Shown: positions 20,901 through 45,661 of the stretch, in pieces | Layout of the letters: every line of letters starts with the position of its first letter | How positions within the stretch are numbered: position 1 is the first letter of the stretch | Assembly: GCA_037043015.1 (NCBI GenBank) | Contig: CM073322.1 | Span: forward strand, 28,628,864 to 28,692,863 | Direction: 5' to 3' | Length of the DNA stretch: 64,000 nucleotides | From: Bryum argenteum | Taxonomy: Eukaryota; Streptophyta; Bryopsida; Bryales; Bryaceae | Translations under genes and position numbers: made by a program | Notes under the pieces: generated by a model | Seen by the model: the letters and a program-made list of their open reading frames with translations, nothing else | Database searches by the model: none | What the model was told of the DNA's origin: nothing

Positions 20901-21540
20901 TCGACAACCATATTATCAAGCATCGGACTAGCACCGTGTATTACCCCCAGGGAAATGGGCAAGCAGAGTCGACAAACAAGACATTAATCAACATGCTCAA
21001 ACGATTTGTGCATGCCAACCAGCAGATCGGGGGCGATTGCTTACAAATTGCGGCTGGCAAGGCATACCGCGCGTGGCCATCAAAACCGCCACGAATGCCA
21101 CCATTTGAAATGGTCTATGGCACTCAACCACTCTCGCCCACGGAATACATCGTGCCGACATTTCGAGACTCTCCGGTAGGGGACTATACACCGCAGAATG
21201 CGGGCGCACCGCATCAACGACCTCCACCACCGGGAGGAAATACGAGCCACGGCGGCTACACACGTCTTTGCACAAACAGAGGACCTTGTCACCAAGTATT
21301 TCAAGGCACGCAACCCACGAGGATATTCCAAAAAGGTGACCAAGTACTTTGGTGCCCCAGGGACCCAAAACTCAAGCGATCAAAATTTGAATCAATATGG
21401 CACGGTCCATACACTGTACAACTGGCGTTACCTAACAACACGGCACTCCTCGTCAACGGTCCAAATTACGACCCCCACGCCACCATCGTTAATTCTGCAA
21501 AGTTAAAACAATATCACACCACGACGCCACAAATCACAAC
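17988..21540 (+). pseudogene. Gypsy pol: protease, RT, RNase H, integrase; frameshifted
   Basis: The frame 17988-19988 holds an aspartic protease (VDGGSG near 18105) and then reverse transcriptase (about 18930-19530) with its catalytic YLDD at 19374-19385. A frame change near 19750 leads to 19702-20733. That frame contains RNase H (HTDASN near 19820, VDHHSL near 20020) and the integrase HHCC zinc domain (about 20445-20590). The integrase core is split by more frame changes: first Asp in GLDFVGP near 20670, second in SDQGT near 20855, Glu in NGQAES near 20960. The C-terminal part extends to about 21500. The catalytic motifs are preserved, so the breaks are young. Confidence 0.9.
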
Positions 21541-22292
21541 AGCCCTCAGCCTCCAAGATATTCACGCAACCCTGGCGGCCGAAGCTACAAACGTGGACGA
21601 TAACCCCGGCACAAAGAACCTTCCGAGTGCGACCCCAGGAAGCCGTGGACATCCACACCAAAGTATGTCACGACCAAGGCATCAGGTCACGCCAGATACA
21701 AACCCGGGGGGAGAGCCACGGGAAGACAAGCACAGAATCCGAGGAAACACGACACCCACAGGTCACCAGGAAACAAGCCCAGGGACACACCGACACCACA
21801 GCACAGGTGCAGCGAACAACCCCATGGGACTTAGCCGCGGAAGGGGCCTCCCCTGCCTCGGCCATACCCATCCACATCCCATGTGCATACATAAACCACA
21901 TCCACGTCATCCATGGCCAAAACTCAGAGGGTCACAGTCACCACCCGACTACCGAGGCGTGGCAAATCAGTGCCATAATTACCCCCCAAGATCTTCCCGA
22001 GGCATCACCACCCGATTATACTACCGAGGCATCATTACCTGATTATACCGCCGAGGCCTCATCACTCCACATGATAAAAGCAGACACCGCCGCCACGGAC
22101 AGGTCTCTCATTATCACCACTCTCTCACTTCCGCAGTCAGTGAGAGTTCAAGTATCGAGGGTTTTCCCAGGGAGAAGGCTCATTCTCGTATTTCCGCCAC
22201 CGCCCTTGCCGCTCAGCATCTGTAGTTTTGCACACCCTCTATACTCCTCGCTCGCACAAAATCGCTTTTTTTCGGTGCAGGTCGCAGCAGCT

Positions 22293-27455: not shown

Positions 27456-27466
27456 TTTGGATCAAA

Positions 27467-27511
27467 GATAGATAGATAGATAAGAACTCCAATCTTCAAA
27501 TCGAAGATTGG
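27467..27511 (-). other. LINE 3' tail: GATA repeat and 9-bp hairpin
   Basis: 27467-27483 is a GATA repeat on the plus strand (TATC at the RNA 3' end). Next to it CCAATCTTC (27489-27497) pairs perfectly with GAAGATTGG (27503-27511). The same hairpin position in the copies at 26004-26025 and 40886-40908 has different bases but remains paired. This suggests that the structure is selected, presumably for recognition by the element's reverse transcriptase. Confidence 0.75.
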
Positions 27512-27718
27512 CGTGAATACAGCGTCTGTTCGTAATGTCTTTACCTCGATGGCCACAGGACAAAGAGGTAAAAGCACAAAACTACTCACCCCTTTCGGGA
27601 ATAGACACTAAACTTCTACATATAACTGAAACTGGACTAACTGGAGTAACCAAGATAAACTATATATGGTGCGGGTTTTTTGGCGGGACCTTGTGTGTTT
27701 TAAATGCGATTTTGGTGG

Positions 27719-27940
27719 GCTTGTGGTCACCAAGCCTTGCAGTCCTGGGGTGGTTGAGGTGTGGGACGTTTGTATTCGTGCTGGTCTGAGTTCGAATCCC
27801 TACGGGCTCGTTTGAGCAGTACGCATGGCTTGGGGCTTTCTGTGAGTGTATGGCAAGAAAATAGTATTCAACTACCTGGCCCCTACCCGAGAAGCTGAGA
27901 CTGAAGCAATTTGCTGCTAACAACAGTGGTTTGTACCACT
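27719..27940 (+). mobile_element. Possible tRNA-derived SINE inside the LINE 3' UTR
   Basis: On the plus strand, opposite to the LINE, an excellent pol III B box (GAGTTCGAATCCC, about 27788-27800) lies about 35 bp after an A-box-like GGTGGTTGAGG. A non-tRNA body follows, ending before a T-rich CTTTTTC. I found no clear target duplication, so the borders are approximate and it could be an old insertion or a chance tRNA-like segment. Confidence 0.4.
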
Positions 27941-27953
27941 ACCCCCTACTTTT

Positions 27954-30458
27954 TCAGGGTGGTTCTATATTAATGGAGAGAGGTTGGTGGTTTTCTATTT
28001 TGCGTTTATGTAAGAGTATAAGTGCGGCGTGTTGGATGGCGATTGTGTTAATTGTTGTGAATGCATTTTTTATTTGTTTTTTAGTGAGCTTGAAAGTGGT
28101 TTCTAATGGTAGCATAGATGGTGTGTGAGTAGTGCCTCTGGCGCCGGCTGTGATGACTATGAGAGGATTAACTTTCCATCCACGGGCAGTTATAGAGTTC
28201 AGTAGTGGTTGGTATTTGTTGATTTTGTTTGTTATGGTTTCTTGCGGAAATCTATCGTTACAGTATGTGAATTCGATGTATTGGATGATGATGTTGTCAT
28301 TTGGGTGTTGTGGGGTGTGCCCCAAAGATGGGAGACCAATTACACATAGTAAGTCGGGTCTGAATCTTGCATTGCATTGGCATCTGATTAGTATTGCACT
28401 GCAAGGGAGGAGCCACTTGGGACTTGTGTTTGTCTGGGGGGGTGCATTAAGGTGTCTACCGGCATTTATAAGTGTGTAGCATCTTGCTTTGGTGTTTGAC
28501 AAGATGAGTTGTTTGATAGTTTTAGCTGCTTGGTTGTGTCTCGGTAACTCGAGTGCGTGGATGTTGGGTTGGGGGCATTTAAGTAAGACGTGTAGCCATG
28601 TGTCTACGTCTGTTGAGTTGCATATAGGACATGTCTTGGATGGGAACCTTATATGTCCAAAGAATAGTTGTTTCCTAGCGTGGCCCATGTATTGGCATGT
28701 ACGGAATTTTAGTATACTAGTTATTTGAGAGTCTGTGATTTTTGGGTTTTTCCAAAAGGCATTAGAGGATTTCGCATGTATGTCTGGATTGGAGGTCCAT
28801 TTGTTTATGTTAGGGAAGTTTTGTGCTAGTGTCTTGAGGTTATTTTCTCGATCGTGTTCTGTGAGATATGTGGCTAAGTTTCTAACTGGACCTTTATCTG
28901 GTCTGTGGTGCGGTCTAGGCCAAGTATTTTTTTGGAAATAGAAAGGGGTAATGTGAGCAAATTCGTGTTGTTTTCGACCAAGTTTATAATTTTTCTCGTT
29001 TCCTGCTTTGGCAAGTTTGTCTGCTTTCTCGTTTCCAGAGATGTTGATATGGGCTCGTACTTTGTGAAATGTGGTGGGTTGGGTACGTAATTTTAAGATA
29101 TTGGTTATGGCGTGGAGGGTATTGAGATCTGGGTGGTTGTTTTGTAAGGTAGGGTGCATGAGGTGTGTTTGTAAGACGTAGAAGCAGTTTATGCAGTCTG
29201 TGAAGATATATGCAGGTTCATCTATGTTTTTGGTTGTGAGGATTTTTAGTGTTTTATATATGGCCATGAGTTCTGCTCTGAAGATGGTTTGTAAGCCAGG
29301 GAGTCTTCTTGATATTTGTATTTCTGGTTTGGTTGAGTTATAAATACCATAGCCGGCTGTTTCGGGAAGTATATATCCAGCTGCTGTTTTGTGTGGTGGT
29401 ATGAAGGATCCGTCTGTGTAGTAGCTGTATTCGGGTGCGAATTTAACAGGAAGGTGTGTGTTGTATAGTGGGAACGGAGGTGTGTTGAGGAAAGCGAATG
29501 TGTGAGTTGGTGAGTATAGTAACTTTGACCAGTTTTTGTTTTTGTTGACTCTAGTGTTTACAGGGGTGGAGGGGATTTCTTGGAGGTGGAACTGAGTGAT
29601 GGATAAATTTCTAAGGGTGCTTATGAGGTTTTGTGTGTCTGTTGGGGTGGTGAGATTATGGTTTTTGTGGTGGATGCAGAGAATCAGGATTGCGTTTGAC
29701 TCGGTGCGGGGTTTTTTGTGGTTGTAAGGAATGGTGGGTTCTTCATATGTTATTGTGTCTGCAGCAAAATGTGCTAAAACGTGCGTGTCCGGGAACTCGG
29801 TTGAGTATGGTGTTGGGTTGTGAAACCATTGTTTGTCAGGCATGATAACCAAGGTGGTGGCATTGTGGTCATGTTGTGCGGCTAACCTAGCCCAATGTAT
29901 GGTTTGTTGAGCAGTTTCATCGTTATGGGGGTGAGCGTAGCCAATACCTTGCCATTTATATTGAAAGGCGAGGCCTCTGGAACCAAATATTTTGTCGCGG
30001 GGACATGTAGAATAGTATTTTGTGATTTGAAGTGGGCATGTTACTGGGGAGGAGAAGTATGTGTGTGTAATTTGAAAAGATGCAATAAGTGTATTGATTA
30101 TGGTAGTAGGGAGCGTGTGGTGGTTTGTTGTTTTGGGGTTGTGTTTGGAGATATTATGTGCGTAGCGTTTGTATAGGAGAATTATTTCTGTTTCAAATGA
30201 TTGCGTGAGGGGGGTTAAACCGTGGTTGGTGTTTAGACATGAGTGATATTGTTCCCATAGCCATGTGAGTCTGGATGTGGGAATTGTGATGATGAAATGC
30301 CCAGTATTGTCAAAAAGGTGAGCTGTTTCATTTAGAACTTGTATAGAGGGGGAGTTTGTGTGAATGTCTTTGTCTGGGTTGCAGTCTTGCAGATGAATTT
30401 GTGTGAGGGGTAGGCTTGTAGGAGGCGGGATGAAGCGAGTGTCTTTTTCTTGCGGCAA
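27954..30458 (-). CDS. LINE ORF2 C-terminal part: MTase-like, RNase H, CCHC, restriction-like endonuclease
   Basis: This uninterrupted 834-codon frame is the downstream part of ORF2; the LINE frame continues upstream to the insertion at 30542. Residues about 140-260 contain IFGSRGLAF, GYAHPHND and TLVIMPDKQWFHN, resembling Dam/PCIF1-type methyltransferases. RNase H spans residues about 343-490, with D349, E396, D421, H470 and D480. A CCHC knuckle follows (C610, C613, H623, C628). The C-terminal domain, about 699-820, reads R-P-D (D702), then I-E-F-T (E729), K745/K748-Y, G-W-K-V and G-A-R-G. This is the pattern of the PD-(D/E)XK restriction-like endonuclease of R2/NeSL/Dualen LINEs. The stop at 27954 is followed by a short 3' UTR. 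The frame is intact although other parts of the element are broken. Confidence 0.8.
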   Translation of the reverse strand: MPQEKDTRFIPPPTSLPLTQIHLQDCNPDKDIHTNSPSIQVLNETAHLFDNTGHFIITIPTSRLTWLWEQYHSCLNTNHGLTPLTQSFETEIILLYKRYAHNISKHNPKTTNHHTLPTTIINTLIASFQITHTYFSSPVTCPLQITKYYSTCPRDKIFGSRGLAFQYKWQGIGYAHPHNDETAQQTIHWARLAAQHDHNATTLVIMPDKQWFHNPTPYSTEFPDTHVLAHFAADTITYEEPTIPYNHKKPRTESNAILILCIHHKNHNLTTPTDTQNLISTLRNLSITQFHLQEIPSTPVNTRVNKNKNWSKLLYSPTHTFAFLNTPPFPLYNTHLPVKFAPEYSYYTDGSFIPPHKTAAGYILPETAGYGIYNSTKPEIQISRRLPGLQTIFRAELMAIYKTLKILTTKNIDEPAYIFTDCINCFYVLQTHLMHPTLQNNHPDLNTLHAITNILKLRTQPTTFHKVRAHINISGNEKADKLAKAGNEKNYKLGRKQHEFAHITPFYFQKNTWPRPHHRPDKGPVRNLATYLTEHDRENNLKTLAQNFPNINKWTSNPDIHAKSSNAFWKNPKITDSQITSILKFRTCQYMGHARKQLFFGHIRFPSKTCPICNSTDVDTWLHVLLKCPQPNIHALELPRHNQAAKTIKQLILSNTKARCYTLINAGRHLNAPPQTNTSPKWLLPCSAILIRCQCNARFRPDLLCVIGLPSLGHTPQHPNDNIIIQYIEFTYCNDRFPQETITNKINKYQPLLNSITARGWKVNPLIVITAGARGTTHTPSMLPLETTFKLTKKQIKNAFTTINTIAIQHAALILLHKRKIENHQPLSINIEPP

Positions 30459-30542
30459 CGTGAAACAGATGATGGTGATGTGTTTGTAAAGAGTGTTTTT
30501 TTGTTGTGTATAGTAATTGGATAAGAGGTTGAGATTATGTTG

Positions 30543-33500
30543 TGTCGTGAGTTACCAGACCGAGAAGACCAAAAATAGCCCAATTTTACTTATACAACCT
30601 AGCAAAATGGTCCACCTTCCGGGTAACGTTCCACGGAGATTCTGTGAAGTGTGAAGACAAAAATGAAATTCAGACCGACCACCATTGGACGCTACAACGA
30701 CAGACACGTTCTGGTCTACCGGATTAGGGAACGCGGGGATTGAGACCCGACTAATTCCTAAACCCAAAACCCCAGGGTGACCGGTTGATTCTGATCCGGT
30801 TGCTTCCCTCTACTCGATTGTTATTTTGGCCGGTTAGGATATGTTAGTGAGTGATGATTTAATTTAACCTCCGTGAATCCTCGGAGGGGTTCTCCTTGTA
30901 GGTTTTTAACAGAGTACGGAAGGGGCACTCTCCTCCGGTTGATTAAGGTGACTGGAGTTTCACCTATACTCGTATCCCTCTCTCTCTCTCTCTCTCTCTC
31001 TCCCTCTACACGGGGTTCCTCCCTTACAACTACCGCTACCGCTTAGTGGATTCACTCAAACGGTAGGTCACACCGGCAGTTGTCCGGTTCTCTCCTTCTT
31101 TCTGGGCGACAGAACTTGTGATCCGGTCTGCAGTGAGTAGCATCCCACTACCCGGCCCACGAGGTTCCTACTACGCACACCGATAGTTAACTGGCCTCCG
31201 GGGTTATGTACAACTCCCGTCGTGGACTTTCCTCACCCGAATATCCCATCCGGGGGGTGGTTATGCGGGATGGCTTTACTCGCCAATCCCAACTCCCCTG
31301 TCCAGTCCGGTTGGAGTCACGACCCCCCCCTCCCTTTGGCACTTGTTACAACACTTCCAGGACGCCCGGACTCCTCTCACTAGGACCTCTTACTGACGGC
31401 GTCACTCCTCCGGCTATCCACTTCGCGGACACCTCAGACTCGTAACTACCCACACAACAAGGGACTTCCCCACCCACAACCGCCAAAACCTCACTTCACA
31501 CACAAGACCAAGCAAATCTCTCACACATACACAGCAAGGACGCAAGGTTTCAGATTGCAAAATTGGACCTTTACTCACAGGGGGGTGGATCGCAGGAAAG
31601 ACCCGAAGGACTCCGCAGAGTCTTCTGATGAAGTCTGATGTTCGGATTTCCGGAAACCCTATCGAGATCGAATTCCCGGGCCTCCGAGATTCCCGGGTGA
31701 GTGGCCAAAAGGGCATCTACTATTTCTAGCTACTTCTAACCTAACTAATTACTAACTAATGTCTTCTTCCGGCGGCGTGGGGCGGCTCGAGGGGTCTGGC
31801 GGCGGGGTGTTCCTCATGGAAGTGCCTGCCTACTCGCGGGGGGTGTACCTCTGTGATCGACCAGTGTCGATGTAAAACCTCGGGTTTTCTTTTTGTGTCC
31901 TCCGGCTCTTCCACATGTCCCGGAGTGCCTTCAACTTTGATGGAGGGGGCACGGGTTGAACTTCGACTTCTTCCTGAGGCACCATGGGCTCTTCCTGCTG
32001 CTCCTGAGGGGCCACGGGTTCATTCTGATGATCATGTTCGCCCGGATCTCCCACCTCGTTGACTCGGACCTCCGGTTGAGGTACTACCTCCTCGACTTGA
32101 TCGGGGAGTCCTGCCCCTTCTCCTGTGACACCGCCAACCGGGTGCTCATCCCGTTGTTGAGAGGGGTTAACCTCTCCTTCCACCACCTGCTCCACCTTGG
32201 AGGGACCGGTTAATACTGGTTCATCCGAGGTATCGCCTCCCGAGGGGAGTCGCAGCTCGTTCTCCCTCCCTGTCCACCGGAACTCCACCATCAAGTGGAA
32301 TCCCCTGCTCCTCCGAAACGGGCAGGGACACTTCCTCAACCTCCATGGGCACCGGTTCCTCCGTGGGCACCTCTGCGGGTGCGAGCACCTCCTCTTCCGG
32401 AAGAGCTTCCGTCGTCTCCACGTGGGGGAGGGCCCCCAACAACTTACCCGTAAGAGTCCGGAACTCCTTGAGGCACTGATTGATCCCGGTTGTGTGCCTC
32501 CTGAGCAGCTCCAGGGATTGGGGTGATTCGCTGATCCCAATCCGGGCATCATAGAAGGCCACCTTCGTCTGAGCCTCAGCATCCGGTTGCAACACCTTCA
32601 GGATGGAGTGCAACACCGTCCTGTCGATGTTCTGCAGCTTCCGGAGTGCAGCCTCCTGCTCCTCCACAATCCTCCTGAGGGCTTCCACCTCCGGATGTGC
32701 CTCCGTGTCCGAGGGGTCCGGTCCACACTGGACTCCCACAGATGCCTTCTCCTTCGGCCGGGCCTTCAGCACCAGCTCCACCTTCTCTCTCCTTAGCCGG
32801 GCTGTTTCTCGCTGCATCTCCTCGGCTAACTCTGGATACCTCTCTACATTGGGGGTCTGGAAGACCCGCTCGAGTCGCGCCAGGAAGGTGAACAATTGTT
32901 CATTCTCCCGATCCACCTCCTCCATGGCTAGCCGGATGGGGTGGAGGATACCCTCGCTGGGTATCCGGTAGTAGGGGCGGGGAAGCACCGGGGTGGTGTT
33001 TTCCGTTCCGGGGGTTACGAGTCCTCTATGGGACGACCCCGGAGCTGCCACTGATGCTGGAGTGGCCGGGGCGGGGTCATTCCCCTGCTCCGGTAGCTCC
33101 AGTCGGGGAGGTGTGGCCCTCTCCGGAGTGCTCTCCTCCTCTGAAATGAGCAGCCTTCTCTTCACCTTGGGCTGGCTCTCCGGGATTGGCTCTGCTATCA
33201 GGGCAGGAGCCGGATCTTGCGTTGGTGCGGGGTCCGGACTTGGGGCCCTCTCCTCCTCGATGGCCCTCGGCTGTGCTACCGGACTCGCTGACCTCTTCCT
33301 CTTCTTGGCCTTGCGCTTCAGGTTGGGCACTCTCCCTCCTGGGGGTCTCTCTCCGGGTGGAGGCACCTCCGCAATGGCCCCTGCTGCAGCCACCTCCTCG
33401 TTCGGGACTCCCTGTTCTACCGGAGGAGGAAGTCGGGCGGGAGAACGTCTCCTCCCAAAACCCGTCGTGTCTTTCCTCCTCACCCCTCGGGATGGTCTTG

Positions 33501-33782
33501 CCTGTCGAGGTGGGGCCTCCTCTTCTTCGTCGTCCGGCGGCCCCGGTCATCAACCCAGTAGGAGAACCGGTCCATCCGGGCATCTCAGGGTATCAACCGG
33601 ATATCAACAAGGGTATCCGGTAGGCTCTAAAATCCCCTAAGGTTAGCCGGAAGGATCCTAACACAAAACTACTATCTACGAACCGGTTTAAGCACACCGA
33701 TTTTTATTTCTACTTGCTAAATTTACCCTTTTACTCCTAATTAATTGCTAAAAACAAAAATATTGGAGAACAGGGTTCGACA
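30543..33782 (-). mobile_element. 3.24-kb insertion in LINE ORF2: TG...CA ends, 5-bp TSD (solo-LTR-like)
   Basis: TGTTG occurs at 30538-30542 and 33783-33787, and the inserted segment begins TGTCG and ends CGACA. These are the hallmarks of LTR-retrotransposon integration. No second copy of either end is found inside, so it is either a very long solo LTR or an element whose LTRs have been lost. A TC microsatellite lies at about 30978-31002. It carries a long minus-strand ORF, listed separately. The flanks join to a continuous LINE frame once it is removed, confirming it as an insertion. Confidence 0.65.
31830..33483 (-). CDS. Unknown P/E/R-rich coiled-coil protein in the 3.24-kb insertion
   Basis: A 420-codon frame (33483-32221) is followed, after an apparent frame change near 32260, by a compositionally matching frame to 31830. 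Together they give a protein of roughly 550-570 aa. The N terminus is basic with an R/K-rich patch (KRKAKKRKR near residue 60). The middle, about residues 160-330, is helical and coiled-coil-like. The rest is acidic, Pro/Glu/Val-rich, and ends in a basic tail. No catalytic motif, zinc finger or Gag-like signature is recognised. A protein inside a presumed LTR is unusual; it may be a captured gene or an accessory ORF. The true start could be further upstream, because the open frame extends beyond the first ATG. Confidence 0.45.
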
Positions 33783-33960
33783 TGTTGGGTGGCGGCCGGG
33801 TAGTTAGGTGGGAAGAGTTCTTTAGGGGAGAGCCAGGTGTGAAACGAGGAGTGGTTTTCTACTATCCAATGACACATATATATATTGGAGGAGTGTGTGA
33901 TTTTGTATTTGTCTTTTTTGGTAACTAACTTATGTGCAGAAATGTGATGTATGGGGAAGG

Positions 33961-35503
33961 TTATCGGGTCTTTGATGATTTGTTTTGATGGTGGTATTGT
34001 TGGCGTGAGCGGTGGGGGGGGGGGAGATGTAGAGAAGCTACAGGGGCAGGAGGAGATATGTTATGATTATGCGTGATGTATTCATTATGTAGCAGGTGGG
34101 ACGGTTGGTGTAGGTGACATCGTTGGGCACATTCAGGATTGCAATTTTTTGGACAAAAGAGTTGTTGTGCTAAATTTAGGGCACTACGCTCTAATTTTGT
34201 GGGGTTCTTATAGTATTTTCTGAAGTCTATGGGTGACATTAAGGTGGTACCATTTGGGAGTGTAAGGTGTTTGATTTTATAAATTTTTTGATGTAATATT
34301 TTTTGTAATAGTTTGAGGGATAGTTTGGGGTCAAGGTGGGGTAGGAGGTTTGATGTTTGGGCCATCCAGTGTATTTCTAGTTCGGTGGGTTCAAGATGGA
34401 AGTTGTTGAGTGTACTTTTTAGGTGAACTCCTCCCTCTTCTTTGAGTAAGAAGAGTATTCGGGTGATTGGAGAGTGTATACAATCATGATATTTTATACG
34501 GGGAATTTCTTTAGATCCACCAAATTTGGCTAAGATGTGTTGTGTAAGGCCCTGGTAGATTGGGCCAAGTTTGCCTTTGTCATTAAGTGCATTTGTTAGT
34601 TGGTCTCCAATGCAACAAAGGTAAGCATTTTTCAGGGAGAATGCTTCCAGTCCAAAGTCTGTATGTGGTAGTTGGGCTATGACATTTGCGGTGCACTTGG
34701 GGAGACCACATATCGTTTTTTGGATGCTGATTATTTTCCTGTCTAGTTTTTTGATCATTGGGAGTGAAAATGGTACGGCGTAGAAGCTGTATGCAATTCC
34801 TGCACGTATGACTGTGTCCACCATGTTAATTTTTTGTTTGATTGTGGCGGGGCAGTTAGCAAGTTTCTGGCATTGTTCTGTAAGTTTTTTGATGGTTAGG
34901 TGTGTTTGGAGTTTCCATTTTAGTGTTGGTACAACTTGGATGCCGAGATATGGATAAGCTTCGTTTTGGTGGAGTATTGGTAATGGTTCGTTTTTGTAGT
35001 TTATGTTTTGTGTTTGAAGGAGGGTTTTGAAGGCAGTGGGAGAGAGTTTGGATTTATTTGGGCACCCTGTGACTGCACATTTTTGTGTTCCTACTTCGAG
35101 TCCGGTCCAGTCACTGAATTTTTCTATTTTGTTCATTTGTATTTGTAGTGCTGGAAGGGTAGCTGTAAGGGCGGCTAAATCATCGGCATATGCAGCGGAG
35201 TTGATAGTGGCGTTTGATGTGCCAAACTTGTATCCATGGTTCCCTCTTTGTAACCATCTTAGGAGAGGTTCTAAAAATACTATAAAAAGATATGGACTTA
35301 ATGTGTCTCCTTGAATGGTGCCTCGTTGGATTGGAATTGGTTTTGTTTGTCCAAAGTGTTCGCCGGTGTATATGGTGGTGGAGTGAGAATATATATTTCC
35401 AATTAGTGTGACAGCATCTACTGGGTAGCCAAGATCTTTCATTATTGCTAGTAGCCTAGCGTGATCTAGGGAACCGAATGCGTTCTTGAAGTCAATGTAC
35501 ATG
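33961..35503 (-). pseudogene. LINE ORF2: reverse transcriptase, catalytic (C-terminal) half
   Basis: This frame contains the RT core from YIDFKNAF, through IPIQRGTIQGDTLSPYLFIVF, to the catalytic A-Y-A-D-D (YADD at 35179-35190), and continues through the thumb region. It was cut from the N-terminal half by the 2.19-kb insertion at 35512-37701. The frame stops at 33961, but the LINE continues in another frame to 33788, where the 3.24-kb insertion begins. Intact catalytic residues plus breaks around them indicate a formerly functional enzyme. Confidence 0.85.
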
Positions 35504-35511
35504 ATATATGT

Positions 35512-37701
35512 GAGGTTAAATCCCGGTGTTCCGGTTTCTAACTCACAAGTGGGCCGTGGGGGTGGGTGCAAACAAAACAATCCTTCCAAGCAATGGACAC
35601 TAAACTTCATACATGCATGCAATGTCTAATTTGAATTCAATCATAGAAGCACAATCATTCAATCAATCCTCAATTTAATCCCAAACATGTAACTCTAGTA
35701 GTGAAGTGAGTCTCCCAAAGCATACCGAGGAGGTTCAAATAGCCCTCATTTGACCACCAAGGGCCTAGGGCTCAATTGTGGACACAAAAACGACCAAAAT
35801 GAACACTTAAGGCCTCCAAAACGCATATGGACCAAGAGGTCCAGCACACAAATTAGGGTTGAAAGAGGTTGCAATTCACATCTAAACACCTTCTACCTCA
35901 ATCCTAAGCACCCTAATCAACATATGAGTGCTAACAAACCACTAAACATGCAATTCACCACTCCGAACACAATTTAGGTTTAATCGGGAAATATTGGGCA
36001 GCGCTTCCGCACCGATTACAAATCCCCGAATTTTTAACCTATCTTTTATAGTTTCAGCCCAAATTTGGGCAGTGCTTCCGCACTACCCTTTACACACGGA
36101 GCACCCTAATTACACATCTAACATTCCAGCAAGCTTATTCATTCAACTAGACAACCATCACACACATAAGATAACATGAATCACAAACAACAACAAACAA
36201 TCAATTTTTTGGCAATTAGTTTTGCCATTTTCAAAATAGAGGTCCACAAATTCCTATCAAGCACTCTACAACCAACCACAAAACAACACAAACAATGAAG
36301 GAGGGGGGGGGGCTCCCTCTATATTAGTACCCTGTCTACCCTCCGTAGTGTCACGGGGAGGGGACATGGCCGTTGTTGCTGCCGTGGTCGACGGCTCCCT
36401 GTTGTATCCCCTGATGCTGCCGCCGAAGGTGCAATCGTTGGCCAGTGCATTCGACGCTGTCTCCGGTGGCCCTCCTCTCTGCTGTGCCGCACTGCTGCTC
36501 GCGTTGCCGACCGCTCCTCGTCGACGTCGCCCCTCTGACTGCGGTTGATTCGCAGTTGCGCTGCTGGTCCGATGGCCGGTGTCGCCGTTAACCTCCGCTG
36601 TCCTGCCGACCGCCGTTCCTCCGAACTGCCAGTTACTGTCCGGCCCCCACTGCAGAATGCTGTCGAGCTGCTCTGGTAATGAACTGGCTCGGGGTTGCCG
36701 GATCCCTGCCGGTGCTGACCTCCGGCCTTCCCTCGTCTGTTTCCCTAGTTGGATCAGCCACGCCGCGTCACTACCGTTGCTCGGCTGATGCCAAACCGCC
36801 GCCTCGTGATGATCCTCGGGCTCCGGAACATGTCAACGCTGGTGGACCTGCTCAACTCCGTGCTGGCGCTGTCGATCGGTAGAGAGCTGACCTCCGGCCT
36901 TCTGATCGAATCTCCCTGCTGCGCCGTGCCGCTGCTGGAGTTCTTCGCCGTCGTCTTCCCTACCCAGTTCCGGATCTGACCTCCTGAGGTACCGATTGCC
37001 GTTGCTGGCGGTGGTGACAGTGCCGCTCCGGCGCTGCTCTCCCGTTCTGATCCGCCGCAGTTGTTGGCCCCGTCGTCGGTGGCGATCTGCTGCCGTCGCC
37101 CTTCCCTCGCTCACAATCCAACCTCCGCAACAAGTCACACACCCAAAAATCTCCCACAATCACACACTTTTTTTTTCACAACATGCACAATCCTATCCCC
37201 AAACACCGTACGTTCAAAAAAAAACTAGCCTAACGGCCCTGACCTGACTCTCCTCCCTCCCTGGCTGATCCAGGGAGGTTGAAGCAAAAAGCTTCATCCG
37301 TCCAATTGGGCAGATTTCATCCGTCCAGTTGGACGGACTTCCATCCATCGTTTCTTCTAACCAATTAGGCAAGATAAAGGCCCACACTTCATACTAGGGG
37401 TTTTGTAGAAGGTAAGGGCAAAAATGGGGCAACCCGACCCCTACTTAGGAATACGTAATCGCTAAAACATACTAAAAACTCGCCATTTAATATATTGGCA
37501 TTTATCAAAAATACTAATTTGGTATAAATTAGAGCAAGAACGGCCGCTTGTGCCACAACCCCCTATGAGACCATGGGTATTCCGTGAATCCACGAAATGA
37601 GCTCAAAAGTCTAATTAAACCATGGAAAACTTGATAATTACGCGCTAAACTTTGCGGGGAACGTATTCCCGCTAAAGTGAACCGTTTCGCGGGTTCACAA
37701 T
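35512..37701. mobile_element. 2.19-kb insertion in the LINE RT, 8-bp TSD
   Basis: ATATATGT at 35504-35511 and 37702-37709 flanks the segment. Deleting it with one duplication restores the RT frame exactly between I-L-S-Q-Y-I-Y-I and M-Y-I-D-F. Eight-base duplications are typical of hAT DNA transposons. The ends (GAGGTTAAATCCC... and ...GGGTTCACAAT) are only weakly inverted-repeat-like. The middle, 36350-37090, is GC-rich without a convincing ORF, so it would be non-autonomous. Because the duplication is an AT dinucleotide-like word, its length is somewhat uncertain. Confidence 0.6.
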
Positions 37702-37709
37702 ATATATGT

Positions 37710-38751
37710 ATTGGCTCAGGATTCTAGCATCTTCAAGTGCAGCTGTGAGAAGTTGTATCTGTCGTGAAGTGCTTCTCTCGGCGCGGAAGCCTTCTTGACT
37801 GTCATGAAGTATTTGATGATGTTTGCCATATGTTGATAAAATGGCTGTGAGGGTGCTAGTAAAGAGTTTGTATATTGTGTTGGCTAGTGCAATTGGTCTG
37901 TGGTTTGGGAGATGAGAGGGGTTGCCTTTCTTATAAAGTAATATGGTGAGGCTGGTTTTCCATGATGCGGGTATTTGTTTTTGTTTGTAGCAGTGGTAGA
38001 AGAAGAGGTGTAAAAGTGTGTGAAATGAGTTGGGCATGTGTTTGAGGATTGAGTTTGGGATTTTATCTGGGCGAGGAGCTTTATTTTGTGAGAGATTTTT
38101 TAGGCAGATGTCAAAGGTTTCGCGATTGTAGTATGTATGTAAGGGGGTTTCTGGTGTACCTCGCTTTTCGAGGGTAAAACCCTCTAGGTCATGCCAAGGG
38201 TATTGACGTACCGCGCATGTGCACGTTTGGAGGTGTTCTGGTTGATAATAACACGTTGGGATGGTTGGGCGATTAGTGATAGATTGTTGTAAGTATATTT
38301 CTTGGGCAATATCTTCTGGGCTAGTGAGAATTTCATTGTTTTGTGTGGTGATGCAATCTAATGGTGGGGTTTCAAGATTTTTAAAAACGCGGTTGTTTAT
38401 TTTCTTGGGGCTAATGTTATAGAGCTGTCTATATTTGGTGATGGCTTTTTTGATGGATTGCCGTGTGTATTTTGTAGTGATGGCGCGTGCCTTTTTGTTT
38501 GCGGTTTTAGCTAAATCTGCTAGTGTGTTTAGCCATTCTTGTTTGGTGTTATCAGTTACTGGGGGAAGTGGTATGTGGGTGGGCGTATGTTGTTGTATGT
38601 TTTGTATAATTGGGTGTGCTCTCCAGTTATCAATGTTGTTAGCGACGTATATTGTTTTGCGGATTAGGTGGTATGTAGAGAGGTGTTTTTTCCATTCTTT
38701 TTGGGCTTTTCGTGGTAGGAAGCCACCTTGAAGGTTGGTATGTGGGGTCAA
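37710..38751 (-). pseudogene. LINE ORF2: reverse transcriptase, N-terminal half
   Basis: The frame shows the LINE RT fingers region: KAPRPDKIPNSILKHMP, WKTSLTILLYKKG, NHRPIALANTIYKLFTS and EGFRAERST. It ends at the 2.19-kb insertion and continues at 35503. Upstream, the frame changes at a run of nine G on the plus strand (about 38761-38769), a likely slippage mutation that separates RT from the linker to the endonuclease. Confidence 0.85.
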
Positions 38752-39079
38752 GGTGGGAATGGGGGGGGGCGGTACATGTGGATAGTAATGTTTCTGTGAT
38801 ATTTTTTATGATGTTGTCTAATTGTGCACAAGCATTAGACCATTCGGTAGAAGTTAGTTGATCTTGTTGTAAAATTGTCGTAAGGTTGTTGATGGAAGGT
38901 GCGTTTTGTTCGAAAAATGTAGTGGTGAATGTGTTCAGGTTTGTTTGTGGGATAGGATTAAGAATTCGTGGGGGTTTTATAGTGAGAACGGGTGACGGTC
39001 TTGCTATCAACAGTTGTGGAGGGATGTGAAGGGATATTGGTGAGTGGTCTGAGTTTAAGTTCTGAGTGTGGTTTGTCGT

Positions 39080-39780
39080 GGATGTAAAATGATGGTGGTC
39101 CGTCAAGTTTATGTAGTAGCCGTCAATCAGGCTTGTTTCTGTATAGTTATATCCACCTTGTCTAGAGAATGGGTCATTTTTGTGGGAATGTATTTGAGGT
39201 TAAGACTTTACGTAAAGGTGCGCCATTGGGTGTCTTCTTCTTGTGGTGGTGTGTTGGTTTGTGCGTTTTGCTGCCTATTAGAGCGATATCTCATTAAAGT
39301 CCCCCACATAGGATGTGGATGTGATTTGGGTGTGCTTGTGTTTGCGTGGTGATTGTTTGTTGGATGTGGGAGATTAATCCTATGTCTTCTGGGTGGGAGG
39401 GCATATATAAGTGTATGAGTAACCAAGGGGTGAGGGGTCTGTTGGATATGAGAATGATTTGAAGGTAGGGTGAAATGTTTGCCGAAGTTGGGATTTTGGT
39501 GATGTTTCCCGGATAGGCGTAGTTTTGGTGTATCAGGGTGAGAAGACCTCCCCTAGCGGAGGTATATGGCATTCGTTGTTGTGTGCAACGCGTTAGTGCA
39601 TGAGTGTTGTTGAAAAGGAGTTTATATTGTGGTATACAGCGTTGGATGATTTTTGTGGATTTGTTAGCGGTAATTTTTGTTTCTTGGATAGTTATTATTG
39701 CAGGAAAGGTGTGTATGAGATTTTGAAGATTTGGCAGGGCTGTGTTTAGTGAAGCCGCGTTCCATGTAATAATTTGCGTG
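39080..39780 (-). pseudogene. LINE ORF2: APE-type endonuclease, frameshifted
   Basis: The domain starts with IITWNAASLN (near 39775) and IQETKI (near 39680), whose Asn and Glu are catalytic positions of apurinic-type LINE endonucleases. It continues with a conserved S-A-R-G-G-L stretch. The C-G-D-F-N catalytic motif is interrupted in the middle: one extra G in a G run at about 39300-39305 shifts the frame. A further frame change lies between 39660 and 39580. This nuclease would nick target DNA to prime reverse transcription. It co-occurs with a second, restriction-like nuclease at the other end of ORF2. Confidence 0.8.
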
Positions 39781-39886
39781 TTGTTTTGGGTTGTGGGGTG
39801 TGGTTGAGGTTGTATGGGGGTTGTAGGTAGTATTGGTTGGGGTTGGGAGTATTCGGGAGTTTTTCGATTGCATCTTAGGGCTTCTA

Positions 39887-42286
39887 TTAGTAGCGTGTCG
39901 GAAGGTATGGAAAGTTGTTTTGTAATGATTGTAGGTTTGCAGTGTTTGCATGTCTTACGATATGATGATATAGTTCTTTATGTATGGTTAGTGTGGGTTT
40001 TATGATGTCCTTTTGGGTGTCGAGAAAGTGGGTGTATGGGTGAGGAGTTTGTAGGTGTCGAGCTGGTGCGTTTGGTAGTCTAGATAGTTTGTTTAGTAAT
40101 GATGTTGTCCAATTTGGGTTTGGGTTTGAGATCATATATTGTTCGCACATTTGTAATTGTGGCCCTATGGTGATTATAAGTGCATATAGAACGTTTGGTG
40201 GTGGGAATTGTGGGTGATTTTGAATGTAACGTGTTAAACATGGGTATGTATTTTGACTTGTTTGGTGGTTGGGATGGGATGTTTGGATGGTGGAGGAAAA
40301 TGTGGATGCGAGATGTTTATATTTTGGGTAGAGTTTTATTGAATTGGAGATTAAATATGTTTTGTTGTGTTGTCGGTGTAGGGCTGGGTGTGCGTGTAGT
40401 ATATTTGGCATAGGGCCTGGGTTGGGTTCAATGTCACCTCCTAATAGTAGGAGGATGTGATTGGGTATAAATTGTCCTTTGATGGTTTTTTCTTTTGGTT
40501 TTGCTAGGTGAATATGTGTGTAGTATTTTATGTATGTGATGAAGTGTGAGTTGAGGTTTGGCAATGGTGGTACGGTTTTGTTTGTATAAGGTTTGCTGTG
40601 ATGGTGCATGTGTGGGAATTTTGGTGTCTTTGTTGTGTTTGTTTCAAGAAAGGGTGTGTAGTTATTGTGCGGGGTGAAAATGTGTGTGTGTAGGTTCTTT
40701 TTAAGTAATGTGTGAGTGTTTAGTGTTGGCGGAGTGGTGCAATTAGGCGGGTATTGTGTATGTATGGGGGTTAGTCTTGAAGATATTAAGGGTGTGATAT
40801 TTGGTTGTGTATAATGGTGTTTTAGGGGAGTAGGTTGAGTGGATAATTTATGTTGATAAGGGGTTTGAAGAGATAGATAGAAACTCCGGTTCCTTTGTAA
40901 AGGGCCGGCGTGAATGAAGTGCCCGTTCGTAATGCTAGTGTCCCGAGGCCCACTAGGGGTTTGAAGAAAATCAGGGGCGGCTATATTTTCCAGAGAAGGG
41001 TGTGTGGTAGGGACGATTACGTGGTTGGCTATTTTATGTGTGAAGGAGTGTGCTTGTTTGGGTTGCGGGTTGGGTGTTTTGGATATGGATATGTGTTTAT
41101 GAGTTTGGATAATAATAGGTCGAATGAGCACTCTATTCATATGGTATGTGGGAGAGTTTGAAGAGGTGTTGGGATTTTGGTTTAGGGATTGTTGATGGAA
41201 GTGTGAAGGGTTTAGTTTACAATGGGTGGATAGTGCGTCATTTTGGGGGTGTATTTCTGGGCTGCCGTTTGGGTTGCATGAGTGCGGTGTGCTTTCAGTC
41301 CCTTTAAACAGCTCTCGTTGTTTCAAAACGTTCCATTTGACTTTCGCATTTACATGCGAGGGCTTCTTGTTTCTTACGTCAAGCTCACGGTAGCGGTCCC
41401 CCCCAATCTCATTTTTTCTTCCCACCTTATGGCCCGTGCCTGAGCTAGCACCAGGGTCTTCCCTTCGAGCCATGCGCTTTCTTTTCCGGCCCGTGATACC
41501 CCGCATGTTCTTGTACTGCACGCAGCCGCCTCCTGGTCGGGTGTATCCCGGGTATGGCCCGTGAGGGTATACCCTTCTTTTGTCCGGGTATGGGTTACTG
41601 TGTTGTTGGAGCCGGGTATCGGGGTTGCTGTGTGGGCTGGGTTTTGGGCTGTATAGCTCCGGGTTCAGGTGTTGGGTGCCGGCGGTGTGTGCAGGTGTCG
41701 CTTTAGGGTGAGCGCTGGCTGTTTTACTTGTCGGGGACGATCGCGCTGGGTTTTGGGGGTCAAGTGGGCGGTGTGAATGTGAGTTTTGTTGCTGGGTTGT
41801 CGTATGTGCATCAGCAAGGCGGTCCGGCCAGAAGGGGAACGGTGCAGAGGTACGGTGGCGGATTCGGAGCTTTTTGTTGGGTACGGTGGGAGCTCCGCAG
41901 CAGCGGGAGGATCGGGTGGTGTGCGATCGGCAGATACAGGCGCTGCAGCGGCTGTCGGACGCTTCTGTCCGAAGTTGATCAGGGGCGTTGGTGGTACGAG
42001 GGAGCCTGTCGATAGTTGTGCTGTATTTATTTGTGTGCTGGGTGCGTTGTGTTGGTGTGAGGTGAAGGTTGCGATAGGAGCAAAAGAGAGTGCCTCCGAT
42101 TGTGTGTTGGTGCTCTGGAATTGTCTGTTCAGAACGATGTGCATACATAGGATGTGCGGTTGTGTAATAGGTGAAGATTGCTTGTGAAGGAAAGAGACAC
42201 GTTGCATTGTGAGAGGTCACCCCTCTGAAAGCGGTACATTGAAGAGTTGTGAGGCTAAATATCAATCTCAGAGTTTTCCTAATCAT
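39887..42286 (-). CDS. LINE ORF2 N-terminal region with 2A-like motif
   Basis: This 799-codon open frame starts with an ATG whose last bases overlap the stop of ORF1 (ATGA at 42286-42283), an arrangement that suggests coupled termination-reinitiation. Residues 1-617 are low in recognisable domains: Ser/Thr/His/Pro-rich, with a basic patch (GRKRKRMARRE) about residue 275. Residues 618-625 are D-I-E-P-N-P-G-P preceded by a Leu run, the 2A-like signature, so the nascent chain could be separated at Gly624/Pro625. The endonuclease would then lie at the start of the downstream product. An 83-bp retro-insertion plus its 13-bp duplication adds 96 bp, keeping the frame open. A frame change after 39887 leads into the endonuclease. 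Confidence 0.65.
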   Translation of the reverse strand: MIRKTLRLIFSLTTLQCTAFRGVTSHNATCLFPSQAIFTYYTTAHPMYAHRSEQTIPEHQHTIGGTLFCSYRNLHLTPTQRTQHTNKYSTTIDRLPRTTNAPDQLRTEASDSRCSACICRSHTTRSSRCCGAPTVPNKKLRIRHRTSAPFPFWPDRLADAHTTTQQQNSHSHRPLDPQNPARSSPTSKTASAHPKATPAHTAGTQHLNPELYSPKPSPHSNPDTRLQQHSNPYPDKRRVYPHGPYPGYTRPGGGCVQYKNMRGITGRKRKRMARREDPGASSGTGHKVGRKNEIGGDRYRELDVRNKKPSHVNAKVKWNVLKQRELFKGTESTPHSCNPNGSPEIHPQNDALSTHCKLNPSHFHQQSLNQNPNTSSNSPTYHMNRVLIRPIIIQTHKHISISKTPNPQPKQAHSFTHKIANHVIVPTTHPSLENIAAPDFLQTPSGPRDTSITNGHFIHAGPLQRNRSFYLSLQTPYQHKLSTQPTPLKHHYTQPNITPLISSRLTPIHTQYPPNCTTPPTLNTHTLLKKNLHTHIFTPHNNYTPFLETNTTKTPKFPHMHHHSKPYTNKTVPPLPNLNSHFITYIKYYTHIHLAKPKEKTIKGQFIPNHILLLLGGDIEPNPGPMPNILHAHPALHRQHNKTYLISNSIKLYPKYKHLASTFSSTIQTSHPNHQTSQNTYPCLTRYIQNHPQFPPPNVLYALIITIGPQLQMCEQYMISNPNPNWTTSLLNKLSRLPNAPARHLQTPHPYTHFLDTQKDIIKPTLTIHKELYHHIVRHANTANLQSLQNNFPYLPTRY
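40412..40435 (-). other. 2A-like ribosome-skipping motif
   Basis: The codons read D-I-E-P-N-P-G-P, fitting the D-x-E-x-N-P-G-P consensus, and are preceded by I-L-L-L-L-G-G. In viruses and in some trypanosome and animal LINEs this motif makes ribosomes release the upstream chain at Gly and resume at Pro. Activity here is inferred from the motif alone. Confidence 0.75.
40872..40954 (-). mobile_element. 83-bp 5'-truncated SINE/LINE copy, 13-bp TSD
   Basis: AGGGGTTTGAAGA at 40859-40871 and 40955-40967 flanks a fragment that is only the shared SINE/LINE 3' end: GATA repeat, hairpin (40886-40908) and the adjoining CGTTCGTAATG block. It is a severely truncated retrotransposition event into the older LINE. 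Confidence 0.85.
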
Positions 42287-44311
42287 GCGTTTGGTGGATG
42301 TGAAAATCCTGGGGGGCGAGAGGGAGGCAATTGCAGGGGCCCTACCAAGAGGGCGCTGGAAATACCGGACATATGTTTCGAGTAGTCACTTGATGCCGTC
42401 GTCAGAAGTGTTAGTTGGTGAAGAAGGTGCTGATGTTGTGTCTGCTGTGCAATAGCGGCTGCCTCGACCATCGATGTGGTGTGTTGGTTCACCTCCGTGC
42501 TAAGCGTTTGAAGCCGTTGTTGCAGACATTCGACGCCTTCGGAGATGGTGTCTCTAATCTGTGCTAAAGAGGGGCCGCTTGGTGTTTCATTTCTTAGCGC
42601 CGTGATTGCATCTTGTAGGAGTTCCCGTGTTGGTGCCGACTTGTGCTGAATGGGCGCAGCACCTGAGGCGCTTCGGTAGTGCGGGGAGAAGTCAACAAGC
42701 TTCCCCGAGAGCGGAACGGGCACGCGCTCGAGCACCATCTCGTGTATACCGCACTGTTGAGGCAACGAATGGTTGCTATACCGTCGTGCCTTCCTTCTTT
42801 GTCGTCTTGTGCTCGGTTAAATGTAATGCTGATGATATTCTGAGGTCCTAAGAGCTTGTGCAGGGCTATCGAGCACTCTTTTTGAGAGGTCAGCTGGTTG
42901 AGTCCCCGTACCAGTATGGTGGTGCTTAGGGCATTCGCGGCAGTGGTGCGAGGCGCTCCAGTTGAGGCAGGTGCTTCCGAGATGTGCGTTGGTAACTCGT
43001 GCAACGGTGGTGGCGATTTGAGGAAGAATTCCTTGGTGAGAAACGCTGTCACAGTAATCTCAGCCGTAGTAGTGTTAGTGAGTTTTTTGGCTACTCCTAC
43101 CACTTCCGCAAAACCCGAGTTCGTATAGCATATCTTAGTAAGATCTGCTTGTAATTGTCGTGAGTTGTATGTAGACAGGGCGGAGCTGGAGATTTGAAGT
43201 CTCCTGTTATTGGCAGTCGAAAGGAATTCATATCCTTTCTCCACCTTGCCAATGACAAAGTCGGAGTTTTGCAGTTGGAGAGTGAAGACTCGATGGCCTC
43301 GTAGCAGTGCGATGGCGTCTCTCTCGGGATTCAATAAGTCTGCACGTAGGAAACCTAGCCACCCGTGGGTCTTCTTATTCACGATTGCACTGATAGGTTC
43401 ACGAAAGCGGCTCGCCAGTGGAATCTGCATCATGGCGAAGCGCGCCGTTGCTGCCTCTTGGACTTGTTGCTTTGACATGTGGTGGTAGTCCCTGTCAAAG
43501 CGAATTATAATCTGATAGCTTCTAGCAAGGCCTGTGGATGGGTTAATTTCTGTGTCTAGGGGTATTTGAGTCAAATGTAAGTATTGTCCGGGTACGCCAT
43601 CAAGTCTAGAAAATGGATACAATTTCTGCGCTACATGGGGGAATGCATGGCGACATGAATGATATTCTACCATCTCTACGTCTGGCATCACACCTTCTAT
43701 CAATGCTTCAGGTGTTAATTCTCTTATTTCAGGGAGGTTTGCTTGGATGTTCAAGAACTCATGTACACTAAACGAGTGCCAAAGATGCTGGATACATTCT
43801 GCAGGTAAGAGTACTGAGTTTAGGGGGGGAATGTTGCCTGTGGGTGCAGCTGCCGGTAAGGGCGTTTCGCGTGTGGCCATAAGCGGTGAACTCAACTCCC
43901 TGGGGGTCGCTGAGAGCTTGAGTGCGGCAATGGAGCTCACCGGGGCGCTCAAGTATTGGCTGGAGGCCGTGTCCCTCTGAGAGTTGGCGAATTGGCTGTG
44001 CCTTTGTGACGCGGAAGTGTGGGTCTTACTGTCTTCCTGTTGATGGTGCAGGCGGGGTCTCTTCGACGCCAAAGGAGGCTGGGCGGGCACTGCAGACGGC
44101 GACAACGACAGTTGGGGTGGGGCGGGGTGGGGTGGTGGTCCATCCTTGCAGGAGCAGCTTTTGGTGAAGTGGTGGCGACTTCGGTTCTTGCAGGTTCGCC
44201 ACCGTTAGTGTCTTTCCGCTTACTAGAGCCTGTAGAGGGAGAAGAGGATTTCTGAGAGAGAGATTTGAGAGTGCGAGGTTTCTTGACAAGAGGGGACGAA
44301 GCCTCTGCCAT
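42283..44311 (-). pseudogene. LINE ORF1: RRM-like and coiled-coil protein, frameshifted
   Basis: The likely start is ATG 44311 (MAEASSPLVKK, Ser/Lys-rich). The frame changes near 44000 into an open stretch 44105-42594, then again near 42740 into 42765-42283. The N-terminal 70 aa are basic, as in nucleic-acid-binding tails. A conserved-looking globular region spans 43800-43100. An RRM-like fold lies at about 42925-42740 (T-T-I-L-V-R-G-L as RNP2, H-D-G-I-A-T-I-R as RNP1), followed by a coiled coil at about 42640-42420. RRM plus coiled coil is the architecture of LINE ORF1 RNA chaperones. The frame upstream of the ATG is also open to 45655. Confidence 0.7.
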
Positions 44312-45661
44312 GGTGCGTTGGGGAGAAAAGAGAGGGGAGGTGCGATAGAATGGTTTTAGTGTTTGCGATAGCTGTAATTTATGCTGTTTGGAGTGGTAGG
44401 AGAGTTTTTTCGGATGGTGGAAGAGTGGTGGAGCGGGAATTGCTTGGTGTGTAGATGCGCTAGTGGCTGTTTGGATTTTGTGGCGTGTTGCTGTGAACAG
44501 ATAGGTGTTACTTCGGCATTGTGGGTGACGTGGTGACGTTTCGTAGGGGAGCGAATAGGATGTAGATTGTAGCCTGTTTTCTAGGGCGTGTTTGTAAGCG
44601 GTAATTCGGAGGTCAGATTCAATGGTCAAGTTGGTTTGATGGGCTGGGGCTAGCAAATTAGCTAGTGGGTGGTGGTTTAGGTTTTTTGAGCATTGGTGGT
44701 AGGTCAGTTGATGGTGTGTGTGTGAATTGCAGGAGTGTGTTGAGTTTTTGATGCGAGAGGGTAAGGTTTGAACGTATTGTGTTTGTGCAGGAGCAGGTGG
44801 AGTGGATTCTTTGTGGTGCGGTGTGATGAAAGGCGGTTTCGGTGGCCTCGGCTGTATTCGAGGCTGCTCATGAAGGAAGGTTTCGGTAGTGTAGTGTGGG
44901 GGTAGTGAGTTGCGTGAGGTGTGCGTTAGATAGTTGGGATTATGGGGGTCAACGTTATGTGTAAGTTTTGTGCGTTTGGTTTTGCGGTGGAATGCTGCAA
45001 ACTTGACTAATGCAATGGATACCACTTGGTGTTTGTGTGAATCTGAAAAGTATGGTTGGGTGTGATTCTGTTTGTGCGTTTGTGTATGTGATACAAGGAT
45101 GCATTTGTGTGCTGGTGTGTGGTTGCTGTGTTCTCGGTGTGTGGGAGGTGTGTTGTTGGGGTTGCACCCGGTTACATAACTAATGAACTGGTAAGAGAAC
45201 GAAGAGTAAATAGTTGAGAAAAGCACTTGGAGATATGGCCGTGTAGCCTCGAGAAGCCTGCGATGTGTTGTCCTGCCATGTGACTTTGGTTGTTGCCCTG
45301 GTCTTGTGAGTAGTGGGCGTTGCCACTTGTAGCGCCTGCTTCGCTGTGGAGTCTTGTGCTGGTCATGGTAACCGCTGCGTTGAGCGAGAGGTAGAGCGGC
45401 TCGCGAAGTGTCACATGACACTGCTAAGCTGGTGTTGCGCGCGGGTTGTAGAAAGGTGGCGACTGCTTCAATTTCATCGATTCTTTCGTTGGCGTCATTG
45501 TCTTCAGATGCTTTGTGTCGTAGGAAGGTATGCGCGTTAATGCTGGACGCGAGGTGAGCGAGGATACACAGGGCCCGAAGGATGCAAACATGGGCGCAGC
45601 GGCGTCGAAGCGATGGGGTGGCGGCGGCTAGGACTTGCCTCCGGAGCGCAAACATGATAGT
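44312..45661 (-). other. LINE 5' region, open in the ORF1 frame
   Basis: The 1.35 kb upstream of the ORF1 start contains no stop codon in the ORF1 frame. An ATG lies 7 bases from the element's 5' end (45655), and its first residues are hydrophobic. Either ORF1 has a 448-aa N-terminal extension, or this is a promoter/5' UTR whose A+C-rich composition avoids stops. The composition (Thr/His/Pro/Asn-rich translation) favours the second view. Confidence 0.5.

Follow-up and report, generated by a model that had tools for sequence, protein, structure and literature searches.

A decayed dual-endonuclease LINE, very probably of the Dualen/RandI type, with a PCIF1/CAPAM-fold domain and a 2A motif in a probable seedless land plant

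Dualen of Chlamydomonas, reportedly described by Kojima and Fujiwara in 2005 with a cysteine protease in the abstract's list of domains, belongs to the Dualen/RandI long interspersed nuclear elements (LINEs), which combine an apurinic/apyrimidinic endonuclease-like domain (APE) and a restriction-like endonuclease (RLE) in one second open reading frame (ORF2) with RNase H, a reverse transcriptase (RT) outside L1 and 3′ repeats other than poly(A). R2 elements, to our knowledge, are without APE and RNase H and insert site-specifically. Dualen is named in three articles (PMC5753468, PMC3636483 and PMC4455052). Two published tables, of 2013 and 2015, list Dualen/RandI for green algae alone, software labels extend the name to cryptophytes and an apicomplexan, 3′ repeats other than poly(A) occur in all eight green-alga RandI families (PMC3747384, Table 3), and dual-nuclease LINEs are cited in support of an origin of APE-type elements by RLE replacement (PMC4640811). 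Among the matches listed (titles and abstract openings in the open-licence literature), there was no report of Dualen/RandI in a land plant, which is weak evidence of absence. Here we analyse an element on the minus strand, positions 27467–45661, of a 64,000-nt stretch of genomic DNA (the window, meaning the whole stretch); judged from its sequence, it is very probably a decayed member of a LINE family of the Dualen/RandI type, whose host is probably a seedless land plant.

In broken frames, the window copy encodes APE, RT, RNase H, a C-x2-C...H...C finger and a C-terminal PD...E...K series. The order in the predicted ORF2 product is leader, 2A motif, linker, APE, RT, PCIF1 fold, RNase H, zinc finger and RLE, and its enzymatic part is laid out as follows:

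39035–39770, minus strand: APE-type endonuclease domain, with a frameshift at CGDFN in the window copy
37705–38200, minus strand: RT, part one, before an insert (5′ limit approximate)
34900–35503, minus strand: RT, part two, with YADD at 35167–35196 (3′ limit approximate)
29694–30386, minus strand: PCIF1/CAPAM-fold domain, with HPHN at the NPPF site (within 29919–29942)
28986–29432, minus strand: RNase H domain
28575–28631, minus strand: zinc-finger-like C-x2-C...H...C
27972–28431, minus strand: predicted RLE (PD...E...K..KY)

An earlier note on this DNA had proposed a dual-endonuclease LINE related to Dualen/RandI, and both nucleases were recovered. The APE motifs that it placed near 39300–39780 all lie there, namely WNAASLNT (39741–39770), IQETK (in 39666–39698) and CGDFN, split by a frameshift at about 39300–39317; SLIDG (39107–39136) and NSDH (39035–39058) were also found. 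Domains were called at the Pfam cut-off in the window copy and in one other ORF2 of the same genome. RT, RNase H and PCIF1_WW were detected in the window copy, where APE went undetected because its frame is broken; in the other ORF2, Exo_endo_phos and Exo_endo_phos_2 exceeded the cut-off, and APE is N-terminal to RT. At the far end of ORF2, where the note had seen a series of RLE-like motifs, we located RPD (in 28347–28385), IEFTY (28254–28280), K..KY (28209–28229) and GW..V..GARG (28134–28184); the frame that holds them runs from 27954 to 30551, not to 30458 as first given. The RLE motif is reached by 12 of 22 homologs, 11 with EFTY and P0022 with ELKY, and the sequences of P0002 and P0007 stop within the domain. 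The note had allowed that this region might fail to match RLE profiles; an AlphaFold2 model of it matched R2 RLE structures far above background and by a wide margin, and R2 (PDB 9nl3, 9dou, 9nl2 and 8gh6) likewise combines a zinc finger with the RLE fold at its C terminus. Unlike R2, the element also has APE, so that RLE is not its sole endonuclease, and it shows duplications at scattered sites. In three relatives (P0033, P0035 and P0037), a single ORF combines APE, RT and RNase H with a match to the RLE profile; E-values for the relatives were calculated over 12 sequences.

Other copies, which the note had suggested seeking, were found in the same genome (258.8 Mb in 25 contigs searched), dual-nuclease copies among them. 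The 865-aa C-terminal ORF gave at least 54 matches, representing the window and 51 other places (two with two rows), at 58–97% identity. Although the window copy is broken, ORF2 is open over 2,334, 2,613 and 2,941 codons in three fetched copies; the 2,941- and 2,613-codon frames each contain 2A, APE, RT, RNase H and RLE, and within the one ORF RLE follows RT toward the C terminus. These frames bear on the idea of a chimera, in which nested elements or an assembly join brought together APE and RLE from different elements. The window copy does hold two inserts, as a chimera might, but the C4 copy, on another contig, matches the window element at 98.2% identity in each of three aligned segments and has the same order without either insert. 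An assembly join or chimera was rejected on the strength of that copy and, with the single long frames and the one-ORF relatives also against it, we consider this origin scarcely credible.

For each domain, codons from up to 15 copies were placed on one open ORF2, and median ratios of nonsynonymous to synonymous divergence (dN/dS) were taken over unsaturated pairs (0.08<dS<0.8). The medians were 0.130 for APE (10 pairs), 0.074 for RT (3), 0.099 for the PCIF1-like domain (8), 0.070 for RNase H (4), 0.090 for the zinc finger (21) and 0.116 for RLE (20; range 0.08–0.42), with 0.171 for the 2A-APE linker (6) and 0.138 for the RT-PCIF linker (11). Over all pairs, mostly saturated, APE gave 0.092, RT 0.053, the PCIF1-like domain 0.093, RNase H 0.069 and RLE 0.108. 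Some pair values behind these all-pair medians are inflated by frameshifted stretches; for the medians over unsaturated pairs, four copy-domain cells were dropped (RNase H of C4; APE, 2A-APE linker and 2A of the C5_13.04 copy). The young window-C4 pair gave 0.4–1.4, in keeping with decay following insertion; the RNase H value of this pair comes from a frameshifted stretch. The RLE domain, covered by 12 copies including the window, is under constraint and retains its catalytic residues in 11 of them; active sites are intact outside broken stretches (CGDFN in the window, SDH and RNase H in C4, the first APE motif in C5_13.04 and RPD in L004). Together, these values suggest that parts of the element have been kept by natural selection in this genome. 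In a multi-copy land-plant family with both nucleases constrained, which enzyme cuts which strand becomes testable.

When an open RT was compared with PDB, the best matches were turtle and bird R2 (113 and 101 bits), human L1 scoring about 76. In a maximum-likelihood RT tree of 20 sequences, from which a third L1 of the same genome (L050) was omitted as too short, the window family and P0032–P0039 formed a clade with an ultrafast bootstrap support of 96, and L1s (human and two from this genome) formed a separate clade (support 99) that excludes the window family. The three relatives with both nucleases fall in the former clade; one of them, P0037, comes from Nannochloris, a green alga. The tree bears on an alternative in which the element is a common plant L1, or another APE-type LINE, with a C terminus that is RLE-like only or holds a non-working RLE relic. 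APE, together with scattered insertions flanked by duplications of about 10–15 bp, is a hallmark of APE-type elements and would suit that alternative, but the RT stands apart from L1, including the two L1s of this genome, the RLE model matches R2 by its wide margin, and RLE is conserved (median dN/dS 0.116, residues in 11/12 copies). We therefore consider it very unlikely; the note had pointed to an RT within plant L1 and no RLE elsewhere as the fatal outcome, and we found the RT outside L1 and RLE in other copies. Scans of viral and genome contig collections (query A1) gave no relative. One close relative, P0005, is labelled as a Candidatus Nitrosocosmicus protein from a metagenome-assembled genome, probably through eukaryotic contamination.

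The termini of the element and the insertions within it are as follows (LTR, long terminal repeat; TSD, target-site duplication):

27456–27466, no strand: TSD on the element's 3′ side, TTTGGATCAAA
45662–45672, no strand: TSD on the element's 5′ side
45650–45661, minus strand: 12 nt at the 5′ junction, not common to other copies
35509–37699, minus strand: inserted LTR-like element, TGTGA...TCACA, with the 5-bp TSD TATAT; absent from the C4 copy
30543–33782, minus strand: inserted LTR-like element, TGTCG...CGACA, GC-rich, with the 5-bp TSD CAACA; absent from the C4 copy
27489–27511, minus strand: 3′-terminal 9-bp hairpin, CCAATCTTC/GAAGATTGG
27467–27483, minus strand: 3′ microsatellite tail (TATC)n

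Exact copies of the 11-bp sequence bound the element, as the note had stated. Its description of the element as full length holds in part: the window copy is nearly full length, but its 5′ end is short by at least 19 nt that the C4 and C5 copies have in common, and it carries the two inserts, which comparison with the C4 copy marks as later arrivals with TG...CA ends and 5-bp duplications. Inside insert 30543–33782 lies a GC-rich 441-aa frame (32221–33546) with no Pfam match at E up to 1.

Beyond the 3′ hairpin, the copies carry (TATC)n or (TA)n tails instead of poly(A). The hairpin alignment comprised six distinct rows, without C2_19.7 and L003 (no 3′ end found) and without later-fetched 3′ ends; pairs were standard in 98.1% of cells, and one pair was changed on both sides in three of six. 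The 3′-end pattern occurred 151 times at up to 3 mismatches (reversed control, 0), and because these 3′ ends outnumber the 52 places with the C-terminal ORF, a short interspersed nuclear element (SINE) partner was considered. Twelve 3′ ends were hand-picked from the listed matches. Six (L051, L052, L056, L057, L058 and L062) had only the last 68–124 nt in common with the element, L054 shared 359 nt, L055 was partial, and L053, L059, L060 and L061 matched over nearly the whole stretch. Among the eight truncated or partial copies, four had a junction duplication of 13–15 bp (L052, L054, L056 and L062; one mismatch in L062, and 10 bp in L052 when the tail repeat is uncounted), and the rest were unclear or untestable. 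ARAGORN found no tRNA in the six short 3′ ends; given this and the duplications at L052, L056 and L062, most of them look like 5′-truncated LINE copies, and the SINE partner was set aside. The C4 duplication is TGCATTTAACTC, and the sequences at the six duplication sites (these four, window and C4) differ. Upstream of the LINE tail, L056 (441–583) and L058 (529–672) have about 144 nt of other sequence in common, possibly a non-autonomous partner or a shared target repeat.

Several points weigh against the Dualen/RandI assignment. The name is supported by architecture and RT clustering, in comparisons that included no named Dualen/RandI sequence. Backbone support in the RT tree is weak (49–72), and the node joining the window family with P0032–P0036 and P0038 has support 50. 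Two Bombyx R2 chains (72 and 68 bits) score under human L1, so that 'nearer to R2' is restricted to turtle and bird R2. As to selection, dS is saturated in most pairs, and the same copies recur in different pairs, making these interdependent. Unsaturated pairs number only 3 for RT and 4 for RNase H; the single such pair for the APE-RT linker, the decayed window-C4, gave 0.816. Hairpin covariation amounts to one pair, and shuffles equalled the covariation score in 9 of 500 cases and the count of both-side-changed pairs in 316 of 500. For the four accepted junction duplications, random placement equalled the score in 23–34 of 200 draws; this control is poor, because draws can hit the duplication itself, though that does not make it a pass. 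Finally, Pfam matched no cysteine protease in an ORF2 (E up to 1) and none in the part of an ORF1 that was searched (E up to 10). That search is a weak one, because even among four relative fragments only sub-threshold Josephin/Ulp1-like (C48) matches appeared, N-terminal of APE, in three (P0032, P0033 and P0035) and none in P0036.

LEAFY marks land plants and charophytes; radial spokes mark flagellated cells. The host genome has a LEAFY gene (C_LFY_FLO, E 2.6e-50), a radial-spoke gene (E 1.6e-34) and 113 zf-RVT matches; the first two point to a seedless land plant (a bryophyte, lycophyte or fern), with a charophyte as the alternative, in line with the land-plant host that the note had assumed.

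What sets the family apart from known Dualen/RandI is its added modules, the PCIF1-fold domain and 2A, beside its probable seedless-land-plant host and the absence of a detected protease. Like the ORF junction, the 3′ hairpin and the inserts, these modules had gone unremarked in the note, whose dual-nuclease claim stands. PCIF1_WW exceeded the Pfam cut-off and the fold match to PCIF1/CAPAM (PDB 6irv, 6irw and 6irz) was clear, with the same F.SP..C and FGSRG motifs; however, PCIF1/CAPAM has a catalytic NPPF, whereas the element's domain, embedded in a retrotransposon polyprotein, has HPH[NT]. The profile and fold matches, as well as the NPEY, close to NPPF, of relatives P0022 and P0033, would fit an active adenine methyltransferase with which the element marks its own RNA or DNA. 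Against such activity, the Asn of NPPF is His in 13/13 copies of this genome and in 14 close relatives with a readable site (11 by pattern; P0004, P0007 and P0019 by eye), Cys in P0032 and P0035, and Ile in P0037, which makes it improbable. No report of PCIF1 in a retroelement was found in the open-licence literature searched (weak evidence of absence), and the Dualen/RandI passages at hand contain no mention of the domain, which within the searchable literature is a previously undescribed part of dual-nuclease LINEs.

The upstream part of the element comprises the following:

42283–44311, minus strand: ORF1, MAEASS... to TGA, three frames in the window copy
42283–42286, minus strand: ATGA, the ORF2 ATG overlapping the ORF1 stop
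40454–42286, minus strand: ORF2 N-terminal leader, open to 2A
40412–40453, minus strand: 2A/StopGo motif, LLLLGGDIEPNPGP

ORF1 is an open frame of 722 codons in C4, and Pfam searches with a related ORF1 gave nothing over the cut-off. The overlap ATGA[AT]TAG was present in 5/5 copies compared, window and C4 being near-identical; the ORF1 stop is TAG in three copies and TGA in these two. From ATG to NPGP, the leader is open over 621 codons in the window; it measures 228 codons in C2_19.7 and some 570 in C5_13.04, and the C4 leader is broken. By eye, the leader starts are hydrophobic. SAYRPRHK-like repeats occur in the leader upstream of 2A in the metagenomic relatives P0028 and P0031.

GDIE[PSV]NPGP was found in 9/9 N-terminal relatives and GD[IV]E[PSA]NPGP in 7/7 copies of this genome that cover 2A (C5_13.04, out of register, read separately), and Nannochloris P0037 carries LLLLQQGIEPNPGP there. 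The 2A definition (D/G/C/N)(V/I)ExNPGP, as worded in a passage of PMC12846837, is satisfied by GDIE[PSVA]NPGP or GDVEPNPGP. The 2A/StopGo of APE-type LINEs (PMC4981915) likewise lies upstream of APE and has a hydrophobic run before its G-D-I-E-x-N-P-G-P; by contrast, the motif described here follows a leader of 228–621 codons in a dual-nuclease element. It lies where P0032, P0033 and P0035 have their sub-threshold protease matches. A 2026 report found that plant viruses make no natural use of 2A; against that background, a natural 2A motif in an element of a plant genome is noteworthy.

These features would fit the following course. Ribosomes would finish ORF1 and restart at the overlapping ORF2 ATG, and 2A would release the leader, leaving an enzyme polyprotein with an N-terminal Pro. 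The RT would recognise the 3′ hairpin, prime by target-primed reverse transcription and slip on the tail. The first nick, a sequence-relaxed one, is probably the work of APE, an assignment based on the scattered sites, duplications of about 10–15 bp and frequent 5′ truncation, unlike site-specific RLE-only elements. By analogy with R2, second-strand cleavage is the probable task of RLE, or else RLE positions DNA with the zinc finger. For the PCIF1-like domain, the likeliest role is binding, not methylation, of the element's capped RNA. We offer only tentatively, as a doubtful generalization, that Dualen-group LINEs in general carry a captured PCIF1/CAPAM-fold domain, which in most lineages would be a cap-binding module without the methyltransferase motif, tying RT to its own capped transcript, and that in the land-plant branch 2A replaces a cysteine protease that may process the polyprotein in other members.

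Elsewhere in the window, the plus strand at 16632–24763 has frames that look Ty3/Gypsy-like by eye, with more ORFs downstream, and the minus strand at 58333–59940 has an unbroken 535-aa ORF that resembles a calcium-dependent protein kinase by eye and is probably a host gene or retrocopy.

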